From the NCBI RefSeq assembly GCF_000002985.6, contig NC_003283.11, positions 17,609,501 to 17,673,500 of the forward strand: DNA of 64,000 nt, given 5' to 3'. Under the pieces are notes generated by a model. That model was given only the letters and a program-made list of their open reading frames with translations, was not told where the DNA came from and did no database searches. The stretch is from Caenorhabditis elegans. Its lineage: Eukaryota; Nematoda; Chromadorea; Rhabditida; Rhabditidae. Both the position numbers and the translations under genes were made by a program. Positions 21,325-59,055 of this stretch are shown piece after piece; the stretch's first letter is position 1; every line of letters begins with the position of its first letter.

Positions 21325-22294
21325 ACATAAAATTCTGCCCTGATCTTTTGAATTGTGCCCATTCATTTGTCTGTAAACATAAAGTGCGCTTTAGGTAACA
21401 CGGTTTATTGATGTGGTCACACTAGTTGGGCCAATATTCCTATGCTGTCATATTCTTATGCTGACGTCTTCTTATGCTGTCAATGGTTTTTTGTCTATTC
21501 TTATGCTGTCGTTTCTTCTTACGCTGGCGCCCAGTACATTGAAATCTTCTTATGCTGACAAAGAAATTAGCATAAGAATACAAGAAAATTGGCCCGTTTT
21601 GAAAAATATTCTTATGCTGGCAAAATTTTTTTCTGCGGATTTCGTGCTCCAAAAAGAGCACAATACCAAATTTCGAGCTCTTTTGGCTTTATTTACTATA
21701 AAGATGAGTTTTTTTTTAATCCGATTCATCTAGAAAAACCCTTACAATAAATGGGGATAAAAACTAGGAAACATAAAGAAGAGGGGAATGAGTGAAGTGA
21801 AACCGGTAAATTAGGGAATGTGGAGATCAACAAATATGATAAACCAAAAAATTAAAGAGATGGTTATGGGTGGGAAACAAAACAAGTCAGATTGTCTTTC
21901 TGAACATCAAAAAATACAAAAAATCTAAAAAACTAACAACATCTAGAACAATAAAAAACAAAGAACTGCCTTTAACAATAAAACAAAAAAAACAAACTAT
22001 AGTTGGAACAGTTCTTAATTTTCGAATGAAAGATTGAGTGGGGAATTTTAAAATTGAATGTCAAAGAAATGGGGAGATGGCGTTGTGAAATACCGGTATA
22101 ATGCTAAAGGCTTTTTGAACCGTCTCGAAAAAAACACTGGGAATGAATATAATTAATAGAACTAAAACTCGGTTAACAACTTAACAACTTGAGAAATCTA
22201 CAACATGCTTAACAAAAAGAAAAAAAACAGATTAATTAAAAATTGGGTCAAAACAACAACAACAAAAATGACGGTAAGTTCGTCAGAAATATGA
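21325..22294. other. Non-coding left interior of the MULE
   Basis: It contains the CTTATGCTG(A/T)C word series (21430-21620) and then AT-rich sequence with many AACAAAAAAC runs. There is no gene. Confidence 0.5.
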
Positions 22295-50050: not shown

Positions 50051-50160
50051 ACCACAGGGTCTTAGTCATTTGTCTCATTTTCAAAATATAGTTTTGTTTT
50101 GAAAAATAATTTTGTTTTTTGCATTTTTAGCGTGACTTTCTACATTTTAAAGTTGAAAAT

Positions 50161-50386
50161 TTGAGTTTCTCGCCTAGAAAAACCTATTAGCCAGTCCAGG
50201 GAGTCGAACCCCTGACCTTCTGAGCCATACCCAACCTTCTAACCTACTGCGCCACGTTACCGCCACTCGAGGGCGCTCACGCCTTGCAAGGTGGCGCAGT
50301 GGCTAAGAGGCTAGGCTATGGCGCAGAAGGTCCCGGGTTCGACTCCCTGGAAGGGTATATAGATTTTCCTAGACAAGAAATTCAAT
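50161..50386. mobile_element. tRNA-like inverted-repeat element 1
   Basis: Ends CCTAGAAAAACCTA and TAGATTTTCCTAG. The left arm holds GGAGTCGAACCCCTGACC. The right arm holds GGTGGCGCAGTGGCTAAGAG (A-box-like) and GGGTTCGACTCC (B-box-like) 40-odd bases on. The arms are imperfect reverse complements. Confidence 0.85.
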
Positions 50387-50499
50387 ATTTTCACTTTTGA
50401 ATTTGGAAAATCAACCATTTTTCGAGGTTGCGGAAATTTAGTGACATTTGTTGCAACTTTTCGTTTTCTTGAACTAATTTTGATTGGATACTGAATTAC

Positions 50500-50702
50500 T
50501 CACCTGTAAAAACCTACATGGGTCTGCCGGGGTCGAACCCCTGACCTTCGGCGTCATAGCCAAGCCTCTTATCCCCTGCGCCACCTGTGAGCGCGCGCCA
50601 CTTGGCAGCGTGGCGCAGTGGCTAGAAGGATAGATTACGGCGCAGAAGGCCAGGGGTTCGATTCCCCGACATTGAATATATGTTTTTCAAGGTGAGAAAT
50701 TT
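50500..50702. mobile_element. tRNA-like inverted-repeat element 2
   Basis: The left arm has GGGGTCGAACCCCTGACC. The right arm has CGTGGCGCAGTGGCTAGAAG and GGGGTTCGATTCCCC. The outer ends (CTGTAAAAACCTA, TATGTTTTTCAAGG) are slightly decayed. Located before dgat-2. Confidence 0.85.
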
Positions 50703-50803
50703 AGAAATTTTACTTTACAAGTTCAAAAATGTATGGTTTTTCTGATTTTTTCAATCTCCTCCGAATTTCGTTCGAATTTCCATTTAAAGGTACAATTTCC
50801 AGC

Positions 50804-52177
50804 ATGCTAAACTACCAAATTCACAAAAAGCTCACCGACATCAAGTGGGTGAACATCTTCTCCCCATGGGATCGCCAGCGTGCCTACTTCGCCTTGGTCG
50901 TCTGGTTCGGGCTCATCTACCCATTCTGCTGCCTGTGCCAGGTGGCTCCGTTTGTGCTCTTTTTCACCGGCCAGTGGATTATTTTGGGTCTCTACGCAGT
51001 TTGGTACCTTTACGATCGAGAATCTCCGAGAAGAGGAGGATATCGGGATAATTGGTTCAGAAATTTGTCGCTGCACAAGTGGTTCGCCGAGTATTTTCCT
51101 GTTAAACTTCACAAAACTGCGGAGTTGGATCCAAACCAAAATTATTTATTCGGATATCATCCTCATGGAATTCTCGGTGTCGGAGCGTGGTCTTGTTTTG
51201 GATTTGATGCGTGCAATGTGAAGCAAGTGGTGAGTTGAGACACAAAAATTTGAAAATTTCACATAGAAAAACCTATAAACAGTGGCGGGGATCGAACCTC
51301 TGGCCTTCTGCGTCATAGCCAGATCTGTTAGCCACTGCGCCACTACTGACTCGGCGCCTCAGTTCGACCTCAACAACAGGCGGCGAGAATGGCGCAGTGG
51401 GTAAGCGGATTGGGCTTTGGCTCAGAAGGTCAGGGGTTCGACCCCCAGGACATGCCTATAGGTTTTTCTAGGTGAAACGCTCGAATTTTTACTTTAAAAA
51501 TCTCCAAATCGACCTAGAAATGACTTTTTTTCCATTGTTACCTTCAAAATATTAAGTTTTTCCAGTTCAAAGGCATCCGCTTCAACATCTGCACCTTGCC
51601 CGGCAACTTCACCGCAATGTTCCGCCGCGAGATCCTCCTCAGCATCGGTATGATCGAGAGCTCCAAAGAATCCATCGAGCACGTGCTCAACTCCGAGGAA
51701 AAGGGCCGTGCCGTTGTAATTGTCGTGGGTGGAGCCGCTGAAGCTCTTGAAGCTCACCCAGGGAAGCATACTCTAACACTGGCAAATCGCAAAGGTTTCG
51801 TGAGAGAAGCCGTGAAGACCGGAGCTCATCTGGTGCCAGTTTATGCGTTTGGAGAGAATGACATATATAAGCAAATTGACAACCCGGAAGGCTCGAAATT
51901 ACGGAAAATTCAAGAATGGGGAAAGAAGAAAATGGGAATTTCACTGCCACTAATCTACGGAAGAGGATATTTTCAAATGGCTCTTGGGCTTCTTCCAATG
52001 AGCCGAGCTGTGAATGTAGTTGTCGGAGCGCCTATTCAAGTGGAAAAAGAGCTCGATCCTTCTAAGGAAGTCATTGATGAAATTCATGGAGTTTATATGG
52101 AAAAGCTCGCCGAGTTATTTGAAGAGCACAAGGCAAAGTTCGGAGTTTCCAAGGACACTCGGCTCGTTTTTCAGTGA
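50804..52177 (+). CDS. dgat-2: Diacylglycerol O-acyltransferase 2 (DGAT2 family)
   Basis: Exons 50804-51229 and 51566-52177 give 345 residues, the normal DGAT2 length. It transfers an acyl group from acyl-CoA to diacylglycerol, the last step of triglyceride synthesis, at the ER and lipid droplets. Two hydrophobic segments lie at residues 35-70. The YHPHG motif (118-122, [14 protein letters not shown]) is the family active-site signature. Exon 2 carries [36 protein letters not shown] and [20 protein letters not shown] with FGEND. I chose ATG 50804 because an ATTTCCAG trans-splice-like acceptor ends one base before it and because upstream in-frame residues do not resemble the family. Intron 1 holds a tRNA-like foldback. 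I recognise it as C. elegans dgat-2; the paralogue name could differ. Confidence 0.93.
51252..51482. mobile_element. tRNA-like inverted-repeat element 3 (in dgat-2 intron)
   Basis: Outer ends CATAGAAAAACCTATA and TATAGGTTTTTCTAGG. The right arm has AATGGCGCAGTGGGTAAGCG and AGGGGTTCGACCCC. The left arm has GGGGATCGAACCTCTGGCC. It makes up most of the intron. Confidence 0.9.
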
Positions 52178-52312
52178 AATAACTTTTATTTTAGATTATT
52201 TGTTTGATGTTTGATGTCTGTTATGTTATCATTTTTTATCACCAAATCGTGTAATTTTGTTTACGGGTTCATTACTGAATTATTGAGAAAATGAATATTT
52301 ATTCTTTTTTTT

Positions 52313-54645
52313 TCACTCCACAATTGATAAGCTCCGTTTTTGAGTTGGCTCCACTTGGAAAATCTTTACATCAGAGTGTTGAATGGTTGCCGGGGGGCTT
52401 GGTGCTTTGAAAAATCCGGCTATAGACCAAGCGATGAGTACTGCGGAGAGAAATGAGTACCATTCGGTGATGACCAAGGCATACTGGAAGAAAAAACATA
52501 GTTTCAGGCTGTTTTAAGGGGGTTGAAAGTTGAAAATTCGAATTTCTCACCTAGAAAAACCTATATATGGTGTCGTGGGTTTGAACCCCTGACCTTCTGA
52601 GTCGAAGGCAGGCCTCTTAGCCACTGCGCCAAGGAGCACACTGCAGTCGGCAAGAAATTTGGGCGCCGCCGCGCAGATAGCCTAGTGGATAAGAGGCTTG
52701 ACTACGACTTGGGAGGCCAAGGGTTCGACCCCCAGATAGTGCTTATAGGTTTTTCTAGACGAAAAGATCGAATTTTTTACTTGAAAACTTTGAATATCAG
52801 TCTGGAAACTATCTTTCCACATTTGAAATAGTCAGAACTTATAAACAACCCACTATAGTGTACTTCGCTGCATGTAATTGATACACATCTTCTCCGAAAA
52901 CTATCAATATTACCACTGGTATGATGGAAATGATAACGAGTATCGCAAACAACATAACGACCTGAAAACTTTTTTTCGAAACTTTGTCCGATGCACCACC
53001 CTTATCGTCAGAATTATGCAACATAATGGGTTATCAGTGTCAGTTTTTTGACTTTGCCCACTCCCCAGGGAAATTTAGAACTCAATCTTCGCACGTGAAC
53101 TAACCTGAACTAAAATACTGCAACTCAGCTTCTCCTGCAATTTCCTGGTTTTTTCCGAGAAACTTTGGTTGGTAGCGAATTCCTTTTTCAGTTTCACATA
53201 GCAAATAACGATGACAACGGTGATAAGTGGTACTTGACCGTGTTTGAAAAATACATTCATATCCTGACCGGAGAGGATAACTGGGTACGCTATTACTGCA
53301 TCACTGATTGGACCAATAAGCATTAGGGGAATGGCAATGGAGTAGAGTAGGACGAGGCTTTTTCTGAAGGAAAATGGGTGAAAACTAGTTAAGAAGTAGA
53401 TTTTTGAAGTTTAGAATGTGAAAATTCGAATTTCTTGTGTTGGAAAACGGATAGTGGCCCCACGGGGATCGAACCCCCGACTTTCTGCGTCGAGCGCAAG
53501 TCTCTTAGCCACTGAGCCATGCGGACCAAGAAGTATTAGGACCCGAGAACGGCAGTTGTGCGCGCGTGGGGCAGTGGTTAAACGGCTTGTCTTTGAAGCG
53601 GGAGGTCGGGGGTTCGAGTCCGGGGAGTGAGTTTATGTTTTTCTAGGTGGGAAATTTCAAAAATTACACTTTTAAACATCATAAGTCTACTGTTTTCGTA
53701 GTTTTTTTAAAATTTTCTCTTGTAAAATACTAAAGCACTGAATATCCTTTTTGTTTAATATTTGACATCTTGAGATTTTTTCATTGGGAAATCCGAAAAA
53801 CGAACCAGAGTCACGTTTCGGACAGTTCAACTTGGAAAAATTAAACTTCTTATCTAGAAAAGCCTATAGGTACTACCCAGGGTTCGAACCCCAGACGATA
53901 TGCGCCGTAGCCAAGCCTCTTAGCCTCTGCGCCATGCTGTCAAACCACAGCTGGAATATCAATTTAGACAGCGCAGCACTGATGGCGCAGTGGAGCCTCG
54001 CCTTGGGCCTAGAGGGTCGGGGGTTCGACTCCCGGGCCATGTTTATAAGTTTCCCTGTGAGGAAACTTCGATTTTCACACTTTAAATGTTTCCAGAAACC
54101 CACTTTTTAATGATAAATAGTCGGTGCAAGTTGAAAAGCATTAGAAAATCCTGAGAACTCGTGGAAAACGTCTCCATAGATATTGTATAAATTACTCGTT
54201 CGACATGGGAAAAATGCCAAAATGGATGCCCAATTTTAACATAGTCCAGGTTGACCGTTTGAATCTGAAAATTTGTAATTTTTTTTTTCAAAAAAATGTA
54301 AAAAAAGTGCAACCTCGTTCACAATGAGCTCGAAAACCGAGGCGATAATATTTATCACAGATTGCACAATTATCAGCCTTTGATAGTCACTTATCACCCG
54401 GAAGTTGTTCACAATAAAGAGTCGTGAGCAAATTGCCACGTGGAGCCAAATACACGAGGATAGAGCCAAAATTCGGTTAATGTACTGTAGCCATTCGAAA
54501 AAATCGGTAACCTCGGAGTTTAATTCTGTGAATTTTGTGTGAGATCTGAAAAAATATAATGTGAGCTCTGAAAAATCAAAAAATGCAAAAAATCAAAATA
54601 AAAAACTTACAAAAACGTGGTATCCAAGGAGTTCGACATACTCAT
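52313..54645 (-). CDS. Nematode 7TM chemoreceptor-type GPCR, copy 1
   Basis: Six exons (54645-54611, 54545-54314, 54264-54104, 53363-53105, 52961-52854, 52483-52313) join in frame. Hydrophobic segments include ILALSSCIWLHVAICSRLFI, LIIVQSVINIIASVFELIV, SLVLLYSIAIPLMLIGPISD, VPLITVVIVICYVKL, VVMLFAILVIISIIPVVILI and LVITEWYSFLSAVLIAW. An intracellular SEKTRKLQEKL segment before the sixth helix is shared with several nematode sr families. The short first exon (MSMSNSLDTTF) is the N-terminus. I cannot name the subfamily. Its introns are enlarged by three tRNA-like foldbacks. It is probably expressed in sensory neurons, by family only. Confidence 0.75.
52535..52772. mobile_element. tRNA-like inverted-repeat element 4
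   Basis: Ends CCTAGAAAAACCTATA and TATAGGTTTTTCTAGA. The left arm has TTTGAACCCCTGACC and CACTGCGCCA. The right arm has GATAGCCTAGTGGATAAGAG and AGGGTTCGACCCCC. It lies in the last intron of receptor copy 1. Confidence 0.9.
53423..53655. mobile_element. tRNA-like inverted-repeat element 5
   Basis: The right arm has CGTGGGGCAGTGGTTAAACG and GGGGTTCGAGTCC. The left arm has GGGATCGAACCCCCGAC and TTAGCCACTGAGCCATGCG. It is in intron 3 of receptor copy 1. Confidence 0.88.
53838..54075. mobile_element. tRNA-like inverted-repeat element 6
   Basis: Ends TCTAGAAAAGCCTATA and TATAAGTTTCCCTG. The left arm has AGGGTTCGAACCCCAGAC. The right arm has GATGGCGCAGTGGAGCCTCG and GGGGTTCGACTCCC. It is next to element 5 in the same intron. 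Confidence 0.88.
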
Positions 54646-54959
54646 AATGGGGGCAGCTCAATGTAAGTCTCGTGCACATTTTTTTATCGAATTACTCACA
54701 AGTTATGTGCAATTTATTAAATCAAGCACCCCCGAAAGTTTCGCAATTTTCCTACTTTTTTGGAGTTTATGCTGCTATGGTCGTCTAGTCAACCAGAGAT
54801 GAACGAGATTTTTGAAAAATCGGATGCTCAACTGCTTGATTCTTGAAAAATCCGGTAATAGACCATGTAATTATGACGGCGGAGAAGAAGGAATACCATT
54901 CGGTGATTACCAGAGACTACTGGAAAATTGGCTTTTATGGTTTATTTGAGAAGTTTAAG

Positions 54960-55200
54960 AGTGAAAAATTCGAACTGCTCGCATAGAAAAACCTATAATT
55001 CGTCGCCGGGGCTTGAACCCCTGACCTTCTGCGTGGGAGACAAGCTTCCTAGCCACTGCGCCATGCGCGCAGCCTGCTGCAACAGACTGGTGACGGCGGA
55101 CGTGCGAGCGTGGCCTACAGGCTAAGAGGCTCACCTTTGACTCAAAAGGTCGGGGGTTTAACCCCCGGGGAGGTTAATAGGTTTTTCTAGACGAGAAATT
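54960..55200. mobile_element. tRNA-like inverted-repeat element 7
   Basis: Ends CATAGAAAAACCTATA and TAGGTTTTTCTAGA. The left arm has GGGGCTTGAACCCCTGACC. The right arm has GCGTGGCCTACAGGCTAAGA and GGGGGTTTAACCCCC, so the B-box-like core is mutated here. It is in an intron of the receptor pseudogene. Confidence 0.88.
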
Positions 55201-55764
55201 GGAATTTTTTGTTTCAAAAACAGTCTAAGCGCAGTTTTTTTTTCAATTTTTTGAATTTTAAATCACCAAATTAAAAAAAAAACTCACAATTGTGTAGCTC
55301 ACCGCAAATCTTCCAAAAACTTCCGCATCGAATAATAACAACAACATATTAGGAATGACGGTTATAATAATCACAATCACTGATAGCATAACCACCTGAG
55401 ACATAATGCTCCAGCTTAATTTCTGCTGCAACTTTTTCGTCTTTTCCGAATAGGAACTGTTTTTCGCGAACTCTTTCTTGAGTTCTTCAAAGCATATTGT
55501 GATAACTGTAGTGATAATGGGGACCCGACTGTGCTTGAAGAATATGTCCATAACTTTTCCGGAACTTATAACTGACTCAGCGAAATAGGAGTAGATAAGT
55601 GGTCCGAGAAGCATCAGAGGAATAGCAATGCCGTACAGGAGGGTAAGACTTTTTCTGAGAAAAGTTCTTTTTTTTGGGGCTTACAATCAAAGTTCAGGTG
55701 CCAATAAAACCGTTAAAATTGAATATTTTCTTAAGCTACACATGGACTACTGCTTTAGTTCGGC

Positions 55765-55880
55765 TTCCGGCGACAGTGCGCCATATGGCGCAGTACTTAA
55801 GAGGCTCGGCTAAGACCCAGAAGGACGGGGGTTCGACCCCCAGCAATGACATATAGATTTTTCTAGACAGAGAATTCGAT
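55765..55880. mobile_element. tRNA-like element, right arm only (8)
   Basis: ATATGGCGCAGTACTTAAGA and GGGGGTTCGACCCCC, then TATAGATTTTTCTAGA. No matching left arm lies next to it. Confidence 0.75.
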
Positions 55881-56384
55881 TTTCACACTCTTAAAACTCT
55901 AAAAACTAACTTTTTAATGATAAATATTCTATGAAGATTGAAAAGCATCAAAAAATCTTGGGTACTCGAGGAAAAACTCTCCATTGTAAGGGTATACACC
56001 AATTTTTCATTTGTAGAAAACTGCCAAAACGGGTGGCCAATTTTCACATAGTTAATGTTCAATGTTTGGATCTGAAACTGTAGATTTTAAGCTGAAAACT
56101 TCGGAGAATGACCTGATTAACTATTAGCCCAAAAATGTTCGCAAATATGTTTATGAAAGATTGAGCAATTATTAATATCTGGTAATCATTTTTGACTCGA
56201 AATTTGTTCACAGTGAATAGCCGTAAAACAAGTGTAGCAAAATACACGTGGAGAGTGATAGAAAACGATTTAGAAACTGCAGAAGCTCATATCGATCTGC
56301 TAAGCCATGATTTTGAATTGTGAATTTCCGGTCTTCTCTGGAAATAATGCACATTGCAATTTTGAGTGGGATCTTACACTTTTA

Positions 56385-56447
56385 AAAGTGAAAAATTCGT
56401 GATTTTCACCTAGAAAAACCTATATGCACTTTCGGGGAGTCGATAAT
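56385..56447. mobile_element. tRNA-like element, left-end fragment (9)
   Basis: CCTAGAAAAACCTATA followed by TTTCGGGGAGTCGA, then unrelated sequence. A truncated copy. Confidence 0.65.
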
Positions 56448-56574
56448 GAATTTTCCACAAAAACTCACATGCTAGTGCTTTCAAATGTCTCCGACATAGT
56501 AGTAACCGGCCAATTTTGCAGTTTTCTGAGTTGCTCACAAGAAATATGCAGTTTCCAAATTAAATTATCTGGCT

Positions 56575-58276
56575 CTAATTTGATTTTCCAATCTCTACAG
56601 CCTTCAAATCAGGCGAGGGCGGGTTCCGTAAAGCTTCCTGAACTACTTTCACAGCGGAATGCGTGGGAGTATGGTTATGAAAGAAGCCGCTAATGGACCA
56701 AGTTATCAGGAAAACAGAGATAAGGGAATACCACTGGGTGACAAGTGAAGAGAGCTGTAATTCCAGACGAATTGGCAAGAAATGCGTAAAAAAATTCTGT
56801 AACTTACTATAATATACATCACAATATGATTCGTATAATATTCCGGATCCCCAAATTCATTGAAAACCCATGGAACAAAATACAAGACAAACCAGACTAC
56901 GCCCGAAAGAATAATTTGCAGCAAAATGCTTGTTGAGAGCTTTTTCTGTAGTTTTTTCGTCGTTTCAGACATATTTTGATTTGTTTTGAAATCCCGTTGG
57001 AGTCTAACGTAGCAATAAATGATCACAGTTGCGATAATTGGGAGTTGGGTGTATTTATAGAAGAGATTCACGTCTTGGCCTTTCTAAACGAGATTTTGGC
57101 GAGTTAAGAGTGGGAAAATTGAATTTCTGACCCAGAAAAATATGAAGAGTGGGTCTTGGGTTCGAACCCCGGACCTGTGGAATAAACGGCGAGTCTCTTA
57201 CCGGCTGCGCTACCTGAACGCTCGGTGATACGATGCTGTGGCGTAGTGGCTAAGAAGCTTGCCTATGACGCAAAAGGTCCGGGGTTCGACCTCCAAGACC
57301 GCATTTAAGTTTTTCTATGCGAAAAATTTAAATTTTCCACTTTAAACTTGCCAACACCGCCACCTACCTCGACAAAACTATACGAATCACTGATATCTCC
57401 ATACATTCCAATTACCATCAGAGGTAAAGCCATACAGTACATTCTCAGCAATTTTCCGCTGAAATTACTTTGATTTTCAAACCGATTTTTTTGGAGTCGA
57501 ACTTTTTGATAAGCACCAGCCTGTGCAAGTTGAAAAGCATCAGAAAATCCTGGGTCGAATTTGAGGTGACCACCATGGAAATAGTGTAGAAAATGGTTTC
57601 AAACCGGGTAAAGTGCCACCAGGAATGACCAATTTTTACGTAATTGATATTGGAGGTTTGAATCTAAAAATTAAAAAAAAAAATTTTGAATTTTTTTTCA
57701 AATTTTTTATTTTAAAAACTACAAAAGATATAGAAAATTTCTCAACTAACAAAATGGTACAAGTTTTATGTTTAACATTTTATCAGTTAGCAATTTTACG
57801 CAAAACTCATACTTTTTGAGTTACATCCCCTCGGACCTACCTCATTAAGCACCATCTCAAAACTGCACGCCAAAATATTAATTATCGATTGGACAATTAT
57901 AAGTTTTTGATAATCATTCATCTGTCGGATTTTGTTAGCAATCAACAATCTTAGAATAATATGAATGTGTAGTATAATACAAGTTGTTAAGGAAACCACT
58001 CGGTTCAGGTACTGGATCCATTCCCCGCAATCAGCTAGGCCATCATTTGGACGGGTATACTTGATTCGGTTACTGGAATAGTAGATTAATTAGTGAAAAT
58101 TTATAATAAAAAGATATTGAGTAATTTTTGAAAAAAATTGGAAAATGTTTTTTTTGAAAAAAAATTTTTAACGAATTTTTTTTTTCAAAAGTCTCTTAAA
58201 GGTTCTTACATTTACATTTTTAATACTTTGAAATTTGAACTCACTCTTCATCACCATTTGAAGCCGTCGGAGACAT
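56575..58276 (-). CDS. Nematode 7TM chemoreceptor-type GPCR, copy 3
   Basis: It starts MSPTASNGDEE at 58276. Later exons read EWIQYLNRVVSLTTCIILHI, LIIVQSIINILACSFEMVLN, NINYVKIGHSWWHFTRFET, LLRMYCMALPLMVIGMYGD, LFYKYTQLPIIATVIIYCYV with SETTKKLQKKL, VVWFVLYFVPWVF and LVTQWYSLISVFLITW. It ends at TAG 56575-56577 with a polar tail. All exons are open, and joins agree with copy 1 apart from one extra intron near 57080-57365, which contains a tRNA-like foldback. Family not named; a role in chemosensation is inferred. Confidence 0.75.
57110..57335. mobile_element. tRNA-like inverted-repeat element 10
   Basis: The left arm has GGGTTCGAACCCCGGACC. The right arm has TGTGGCGTAGTGGCTAAGAA and CGGGGTTCGACCTCC, then AAGTTTTTCTATGCG. 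It is in an intron of receptor copy 3. Confidence 0.88.
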
Positions 58277-58299
58277 TATGAATGAGCCTGCAGGAAATT

Positions 58300-58490
58300 G
58301 AGGAGGAAAACTTGAGCGCACGTAGGATTGGATTATCGGGCGACATTTCCGAAGAATTTTTTGTGCTCTATCAAGCAAATTATGGCTAATACAATGAAAA
58401 CTCAACAAGTTTTATTTGGTTCTCTTTTTTTTTTCAGAAATCAAGAGAGAATTCTCCACTTCCACTTGTTTTTCGCCATTTCAAATTAAA
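58300..58490. other. Intergenic interval upstream of receptor copy 3
   Basis: No gene or clear motif apart from a CACGTAGGATTGGATTATCG stretch. The two foldbacks that follow fill the rest of the gap to 59060. Confidence 0.3.
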
Positions 58491-58499
58491 AATTTTGAA

Positions 58500-58722
58500 A
58501 TTACGTGCTTAGAAAAACGGTAATTTCGCTCATAGGGATTCGAACCCGTGACCTATTTTCTAGAAGTCAAGCTTACAACCGACTGCGCCACCGCGCCCTA
58601 ATGAGCACTTGGTGACTTTCCTTCCCGGTGCCATGTGGCTCAGTTGGTTAGAGGCTCGACTTTCGCGAAGGTCAGGGTTCGACCCCAACAGGGTAGATAT
58701 AAATTTTTCTAGACTAAAGTTA
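58500..58722. mobile_element. tRNA-like inverted-repeat element 11
   Basis: The left arm has GGGATTCGAACCCGTGACC and GACTGCGCCACCGCG. The right arm has CATGTGGCTCAGTTGGTTAG and AGGGTTCGACCCC. The A-box-like segment GGCTCAGTTGG is close to genuine tRNA sequence. Confidence 0.88.
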
Positions 58723-58834
58723 TAGTTTTTCTTCTATTAAATCTCTAAAATCGATAGAAAATCATGATTTGTTTGCATTTTTGTCGAAAACCCCTATTTC
58801 ACTGTGTTTTTCAGAATTCATAACCAAAAATTCG

Positions 58835-59055
58835 AGTTTCTCGTCTAGAAAAACATAAAATCCTCATCGGGGAGTCGAACTCATGACCTTCTGCTCAAAA
58901 GGCAAATCTGCTACCCACTGCGCCACCGCGCTCCAGCGCTCGTCTGCTGGTGTGTCACACCGGTGGCTCAGCTGTAAGAAGCTGGGCATTGGCTCTGAAG
59001 GTCGGGGGTTCAACCCCCAACAATGAGATATAGGTTTTTCTATACGAGAAGGTCG
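58835..59055. mobile_element. tRNA-like inverted-repeat element 12
   Basis: Ends TCTAGAAAAACATAAA and TATAGGTTTTTCTATA. The left arm has GGGGAGTCGAACTCATGACC. The right arm has CGGTGGCTCAGCTGTAAGAA and GGGGGTTCAACCCCC. Confidence 0.88.

Follow-up and report, generated by a model that had tools for sequence, protein, structure and literature searches.

The window analysed here, a stretch of 64 kb of Caenorhabditis elegans DNA (V:17,609,501-17,673,500), contains on the right arm of chromosome V a cluster of short inverted-repeat elements in which each arm resembles a tRNA gene (V:17,659,661-17,668,555). A profile built from the arms of the window found 21 full arms (expectation value, E, of 1e-14 or better), all between window positions 50169 and 59048, and an arm fragment at 56406-56443 (E 1.2e-6). 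No further match at E<0.001 was obtained in the 64 kb; outside the 9 kb of the cluster the sole match at E<=10 was at 21726-21744 (E 9.8), and within the 9 kb partial antisense matches had E from 0.003 to 9.5. As the profile was trained on these same 21 arms, the search tests specificity and not rediscovery. There are ten pairs, each with its left arm on the minus strand and its right arm on the plus strand, together with one solo plus-strand arm and one fragment. The first-pass annotation, made from the letters of the window, had counted ten pairs and two partial copies in 9 kb, and this count was confirmed.

Element 1 (50174-50372) has its left arm at 50174-50254 and its right arm at 50292-50372, and its inverted repeat extends out to 50133-50413. 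Elements 2 (50507-50690; arms 50507-50583 and 50610-50690), 3 (51264-51471; arms 51264-51343 and 51389-51471) and 5 (53441-53646; arms 53441-53520 and 53568-53646) were delimited by the arm profile, as were elements 9 (58510-58712; arms 58510-58591 and 58635-58712) and 10 (58845-59042; arms 58845-58925 and 58963-59042). Element 6 (53854-54052; arms 53854-53935 and 53982-54052) lacks a run of four T at the usual place in its right arm. Three elements lie in apparent introns of tandem paralogous genes: element 4 (52551-52758; arms 52551-52631 and 52678-52758) in paralog A, element 7 (54984-55190; arms 54984-55064 and 55111-55190) in paralog B, and element 8 (57134-57317; arms 57134-57212 and 57238-57317), which makes up most of an intron of paralog C only. 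The solo right arm (55785-55866, plus strand) has an A box matching at 9/11 positions, a B box and a T-run, while the fragment (56410-56443, minus strand) retains outer repeat together with the distal portion of a left arm and has lost its boxes. Element 3 is flanked by two exons of a diacylglycerol acyltransferase gene (to ~51233 and from ~51568), recognised from the open reading frames. Judged in the same way, all elements of the window lie outside evident coding exons, in agreement with the earlier placing of the pairs in introns or between genes.

When each arm is read outward, an A box is followed ~44 nt on by a B box and then by a T-run. Among the 20 paired arms of the window the B-box motif GGTTCGA matched at 7/7 positions in 15, at 6/7 in four and at 5/7 in one, and TGGCGCAGTGG matched at 10-11/11 positions in 15 and at 7-9/11 in five. 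The first run of four or more T lies 16-18 nt past the B box in 18/20 of these arms, the exceptions being the right arm of element 6 (39 nt) and the left arm of element 10 (10 nt). The unit is a palindrome of ~335 bp in which a short spacer separates two mirrored halves, each made up of a tRNA-like arm and, outside it, an outer inverted repeat. With the A boxes on the inner side and a T4-5 run behind nearly every B box, each arm is an outward promoter-terminator cassette. The mirrored arms had been described correctly in the first-pass annotation; the unit is longer than it stated, the outer inverted repeat continuing ~63 nt beyond the T-run, and both arms point outward.

Homology between copies is largely confined to this unit. 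Pairwise alignments of whole elements (145 matches, 54 elements) end mostly 20-40 or 60-70 nt outside the arms, and in two copies 0.9 Mb apart (V:17.906 and V:18.811 Mb) the alignment covers ~350 bp and extends beyond the arms by 60 and 85 bp. The highest similarity was between III:1,006,324 and III:1,009,127: oppositely oriented, these two copies agree at 95 % over 325 bp, and their nearest flanks do not match. Other close pairs of copies have an extra 100-200 bp in common on one side, so segmental duplication contributes as well. With a size of ~325-350 bp and terminal inverted repeats, the unit falls below the 600-bp limit of miniature inverted-repeat transposable elements (MITEs). The arms and outer repeats make up nearly the whole element, with spacers of 6-53 bp, and the description as a foldback element holds. 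That as a short interspersed nuclear element (SINE) does not: SINEs run in one direction and have an A-rich tail or one resembling a long interspersed nuclear element, whereas here a mirrored pair has T-runs followed by a common outer repeat, and no target-site duplication was detected. The internal A and B boxes are a feature in common with tRNA-derived SINEs.

The family was followed in 264 kb of merged DNA from 61 segments, a non-random sample chosen by arm or tRNA searches. An iterated profile gave 251 matches, of which 42 overlapped tRNA calls of ARAGORN; at least two of these 42 are family arms, bringing the total to 211. Neighbouring arms less than 150 bp apart were oriented -+ in 64 cases, ++ in nine, +- in seven and -- in four, and 60 of the -+ pairs have the short spacers given above. 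These counts include a weak pair at V:16.62 Mb (E ~1e-4 and 6e-7) whose membership is doubtful. Genome-wide, the A-to-B pattern GGCGCAGTGG-N28-45-GGTTCGA occurred 199 times and the reversed control pattern 0 times. The B box together with TTTTTCTAG was found 44 times (0 for the reversed pattern), with seven matches on chromosome I, one on II, ten on III, two on IV, 24 on V and none on the sixth contig, taken as X; all 24 on chromosome V lie within 17.66-20.22 Mb. An exact whole-pair pattern with perfect boxes gave 17 matches against 0 in the control, some elements being matched on both strands.

The cassette was scored in 116/120 paired arms, the four at segment ends being dropped, and in 82/91 single arms, 79 of which have a B box of 5/7 or better. 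All 116 paired arms have such a B box, the A-to-B distance is 44 nt in 100 of them, and in 113 the first run of four or more T begins 5-32 nt past the B box. In this 31-nt zone, runs of four or more A occurred in 14 paired arms, compared with the 113 having T-runs, and T-runs were found in 39 arms in the downstream control zone and in six in the upstream one. Single arms (77/79) and ARAGORN-called matches (41/42) have the T-run as well. Nearly all paired arms have lost the acceptor stem, with 2.73 of the 7 pairs able to form, as against 2.72 in a slid control and 6.57 (control 2.75) in the 42 ARAGORN-called matches, and one arm reaches six pairs. The T stem is partial, with 0.66 of pairs formed vs 1.00, and sliding the partner by one gave 0.68. 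Between the boxes, runs of four T are as rare in paired arms as in shuffled sequence (4/114, expectation 3.3), while they are common in single arms (44/79, expectation 5.1) and in ARAGORN-called matches (15/42, expectation 2.7). Many single arms could for this reason stop RNA polymerase III (Pol III) early, although tRNA genes tolerate such internal T-runs.

A box, B box and T-run also change more slowly than the rest of the unit. Trees and identities were based on 116 paired arms from 58 of the 60 pairs, leaving out the pair to which the arm at III:1,577,307 belongs and another that fell at a segment end. On terminal branches, changes per column per copy were 0.049 in the A box, 0.083 in the A-box tail, 0.052 in the B box and 0.037 in the T-run, compared with 0.119 in the middle, 0.135 in the outer repeat, 0.184 after the B box and 0.200 beyond. 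The A box, B box and T-run are thus ~2-5 times slower than middle, outer repeat and flanks, on terminal branches too, and the difference between boxes and middle was reached in 0/20,000 column shuffles. Free divergence at the boxes, which the first-pass annotation had named as the finding that would speak against its reading, was not observed. Identity was 0.88 in the A box, 0.97 in the B box, 0.93 in the T-run, 0.71 in the middle and 0.62 after the B box. In a simulation of uniform divergence the profile found 992/1500 arms, and their identity was 0.74-0.76 in all five zones; the weaker arm of each pair had the same zone contrast as the full set. As simulated arms stay even and weaker arms agree, the profile search is not the source of the contrast. 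A search with the outer repeat only found a B box of 6/7 or better inside 75/79 matches and outside 5/76.

tRNA-like repeats with these boxes are not new in C. elegans, and the first-pass statement that no family of this design had been described was too strong. According to the main text of PMC6950938, 504 of 1029 TFIIIC sites in this species are without Pol III; repeats overlap 225 of the 504, and in 214 cases the repeat is CeRep3, regarded as a putative tRNA pseudogene. The sites form an extra-TFIIIC class, in which TFIIIC is bound and both Pol III and TBP are absent; they are reported there to be enriched on right I, left II, III, IV and right V and rare on X, and to lie near but mostly outside H3K9me3 regions and mostly inside LEM-2 domains. 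Of our 44 exact matches, 43 lie on those same arms, the one off them being at I:0.997 Mb. Because boxes, chromosome arms and clustering are the same, the paired-arm family likely belongs to the CeRep3/extra-TFIIIC class and is inferred to be CeRep3. As far as described in that paper, both are tRNA-like repeats with A and B boxes, densest on the right arm of V among their arm clusters and over-represented in introns. The divergent pair, the outer inverted repeats, the conserved T-runs and the lost acceptor stem are added here, and the main text of PMC6950938 has no mention of an inverted design under the terms 'invert', 'palindrom', 'SINE' or 'transposon'.

The elements are, in our view, probably copies of a MITE-like foldback repeat that is non-autonomous and contains TFIIIC sites in pairs, a reading that builds on the observed anatomy, the unit-confined homology and the slower change at boxes and T-run. 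Each inverted repeat would bear a cassette of the Pol III type, consisting of A box, B box and T4-5 terminator, directed outward and without a working cloverleaf. If, as the class suggests, TFIIIC binds both arms, each copy would be a double TFIIIC site at which Pol III is scarce or absent in embryos, and clusters of elements on chromosome arms may function as boundaries or anchors. The element would have spread as a DNA unit, mostly locally, and gene conversion between copies may raise their likeness.

Several observations weigh against this reading. A target-site duplication, which would be 7-20 bp long in a SINE and of fixed length in a MITE, was not detected: in the flanks of 49 elements the mean longest common word was 5.18 for an element's own flanks and 4.98 between elements, with blurred element ends. 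A collinear match of 93 bp (86 %) lies ~550 bp from the copies at III:1,006,324 and III:1,009,127, at neighbouring elements, and the two may be an old inverted duplication with gene-converted elements. Training of the outer-repeat profile used repeats adjoining arms already found, and away from these a B box of 6/7 or better was present in only 4/8 matches at E<=0.001 and in 8/28 at E<=0.1; both arms are missing from the copy at V:18,801,112. Terminal branches of an incomplete census include evolution before insertion. Single arms are T-rich also in the upstream control zone (68/79 with a run of four T) and have a faint trace of the acceptor stem (3.20 vs 2.60 pairs), and two of the 211 family arms are called as tRNAs by ARAGORN, one of them paired (III:1,577,307, Arg) and the other single (V:18,801,967, Gly). 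Furthermore, a retained Pol III terminator is unexpected for sites that bind TFIIIC only.

The last point leads to a more far-reaching version, which we regard as tentative. A foldback mobile repeat may have seeded many TFIIIC-only sites of the genome as back-to-back doubles, with selection, by the host or in a hidden stage of the element, acting on promoter and terminator and not on the RNA. The kept terminator would then imply that in some stage or tissue Pol III does transcribe these sites and that this has been overlooked.

Less probable than the main reading is a purely selfish element, for which Pol III transcription of the arms is or was recently needed for spread; boxes and terminators would be conserved since only working copies multiply, and the host would have no part. 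Retention of promoter and terminator together with loss of the acceptor stem agrees with this, and so does the distribution of arm identity, which is 0.71 within a cluster, 0.65 elsewhere on the same chromosome and 0.64 on other chromosomes. Copies are alike locally, and such likeness at the level of the cluster fits local spread or homogenisation. Under the selfish reading, however, dead copies should drift, yet the ratio of box to middle rises little from internal branches (2.27/6.25) to terminal ones (0.049/0.119). That the left and right arms represent separate lineages was rejected, as identities of left with left, left with right and right with right are equal, but several of the closest copies retain two distinguishable arms (e.g. 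0.96 in one orientation and 0.76 in the other), and in the cluster at V:20.12 Mb the two orientations are barely different.

It is improbable that the arms are ordinary decaying tRNA pseudogenes, inverted in pairs by chance and multiplied by duplication. The suspicion expressed for CeRep3 in PMC6950938 points in that direction, as do the weak match of the best arm to the Rfam tRNA model (21.7 bits, cut-off 29) and the two ARAGORN calls among the 211 arms. Decay should not, however, spare A box, B box and T-run, and neither 64 -+ against seven +- neighbours nor the common outer repeat is a chance result. Functional tRNA genes in the window are rejected, since ARAGORN found 0 tRNAs in the 64 kb, the Rfam score is below its cut-off and the acceptor stem is missing. 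No close tRNA ancestor can be named, as a pattern for elongator Met tRNA gave 0 matches and the Arg reading of ARAGORN is a hint at most.

Least probable of all is an element that functions through foldback RNA, made by Pol II read-through of introns as a source of editing substrates or small RNA: nine of the ten window elements fold far below their shuffles (z -5.8 to -15.2; the tenth, z -1.6), but this is expected of any inverted repeat, the duplex energy of left with right arms is hardly better within elements (mean -97.2) than between them (-94.9, sd 15.7; 6/10 beat the median), identity within a pair (0.716) equals that within a cluster, and the middle segment, which would pair, is more diverged than the boxes. 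There is accordingly no sign of selection on the pairing of left and right arms. The double-stranded RNA from the two arms suggested at first is likewise unlikely, since outward transcripts ending at the T-runs would have the same sense and the two arms show no co-evolution.

Inverted repeats with B boxes are found also in the boundary elements of fission yeast, which are bound by TFIIIC, act as boundaries and occupy few loci. Here TFIIIC binding and a boundary role would be the counterpart, and the family is dispersed, each of its arms having A box, B box and terminator. CERP2 and CELE2, Caenorhabditis MITEs co-opted as germline promoters (PMC9757741), are by their published description likewise short C. 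elegans inverted-repeat elements whose repeats contain motifs for host factors; HIM-17 and Pol II promoters are involved there, Pol III-type boxes and T-runs here.

Going by the motifs, tRNA-like repeats of the TFIIIC-only sort would appear as mirrored promoter-terminator pairs in a MITE-like foldback unit at 60 places in the sample, and the TFIIIC sites of C. elegans may often be mirrored pairs. To our knowledge, C. elegans is without CTCF. If many TFIIIC-only sites are doubles in a mirrored repeat of the mobile type, their clustering, dispersal and boundary role become testable, and the kept terminators raise the question of whether such sites are truly never transcribed.

The remaining arms of the family are mostly single, at I 12-14 Mb, II 2.4 Mb, III 3.1-3.2 Mb, IV 1.4 Mb and V 19.6 Mb, some of them spaced ~300 bp apart. 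A second architecture of unpaired single tRNA-like modules is present at I:12,674,600-12,678,700, where in many modules GGCGCAGTGGGATTTT places a T4 run directly behind the A box and a long T-run follows the B box. At IV:1,476,194-1,476,954, weak matches resembling the outer repeat (E 0.05-0.1) are regularly spaced, perhaps as a short tandem array. Two reduced copies were also seen: V:18,801,112-18,801,270 has both outer repeats and ~20 nt between the T-runs, both tRNA-like arms being deleted, and V:18,802,567-18,802,797 has both outer repeats, a left arm reduced to the B box and a mostly intact right arm. In the centre of chromosome III, at 9.85 and 9.11 Mb, the A-to-B pattern occurs at sites that are not ARAGORN tRNAs and match no Rfam family at gathering score.

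In the window, the introns of the tandem paralogs deserve mention. Elements 4 and 7 occupy what seems to be the same intron of paralogs A and B, which in paralog C is ~53 bp long and empty (56753-56806); gene duplication may thus be a partial source of the local density of elements. The apparent intron at 57084-57367 of paralog C, a minus-strand gene, consists almost wholly of element 8, and the corresponding exon is contiguous, with equal protein length, in paralogs A (53075-53380) and B (55258-55660). Either the element brought a gain of this intron in paralog C or the intron was lost in A and B; a genome search for the tandem paralogs found just these three genes. A role of the element as a general creator of introns was not supported, and one apparent intron on chromosome III, delimited by splice-like sites, contains two elements.

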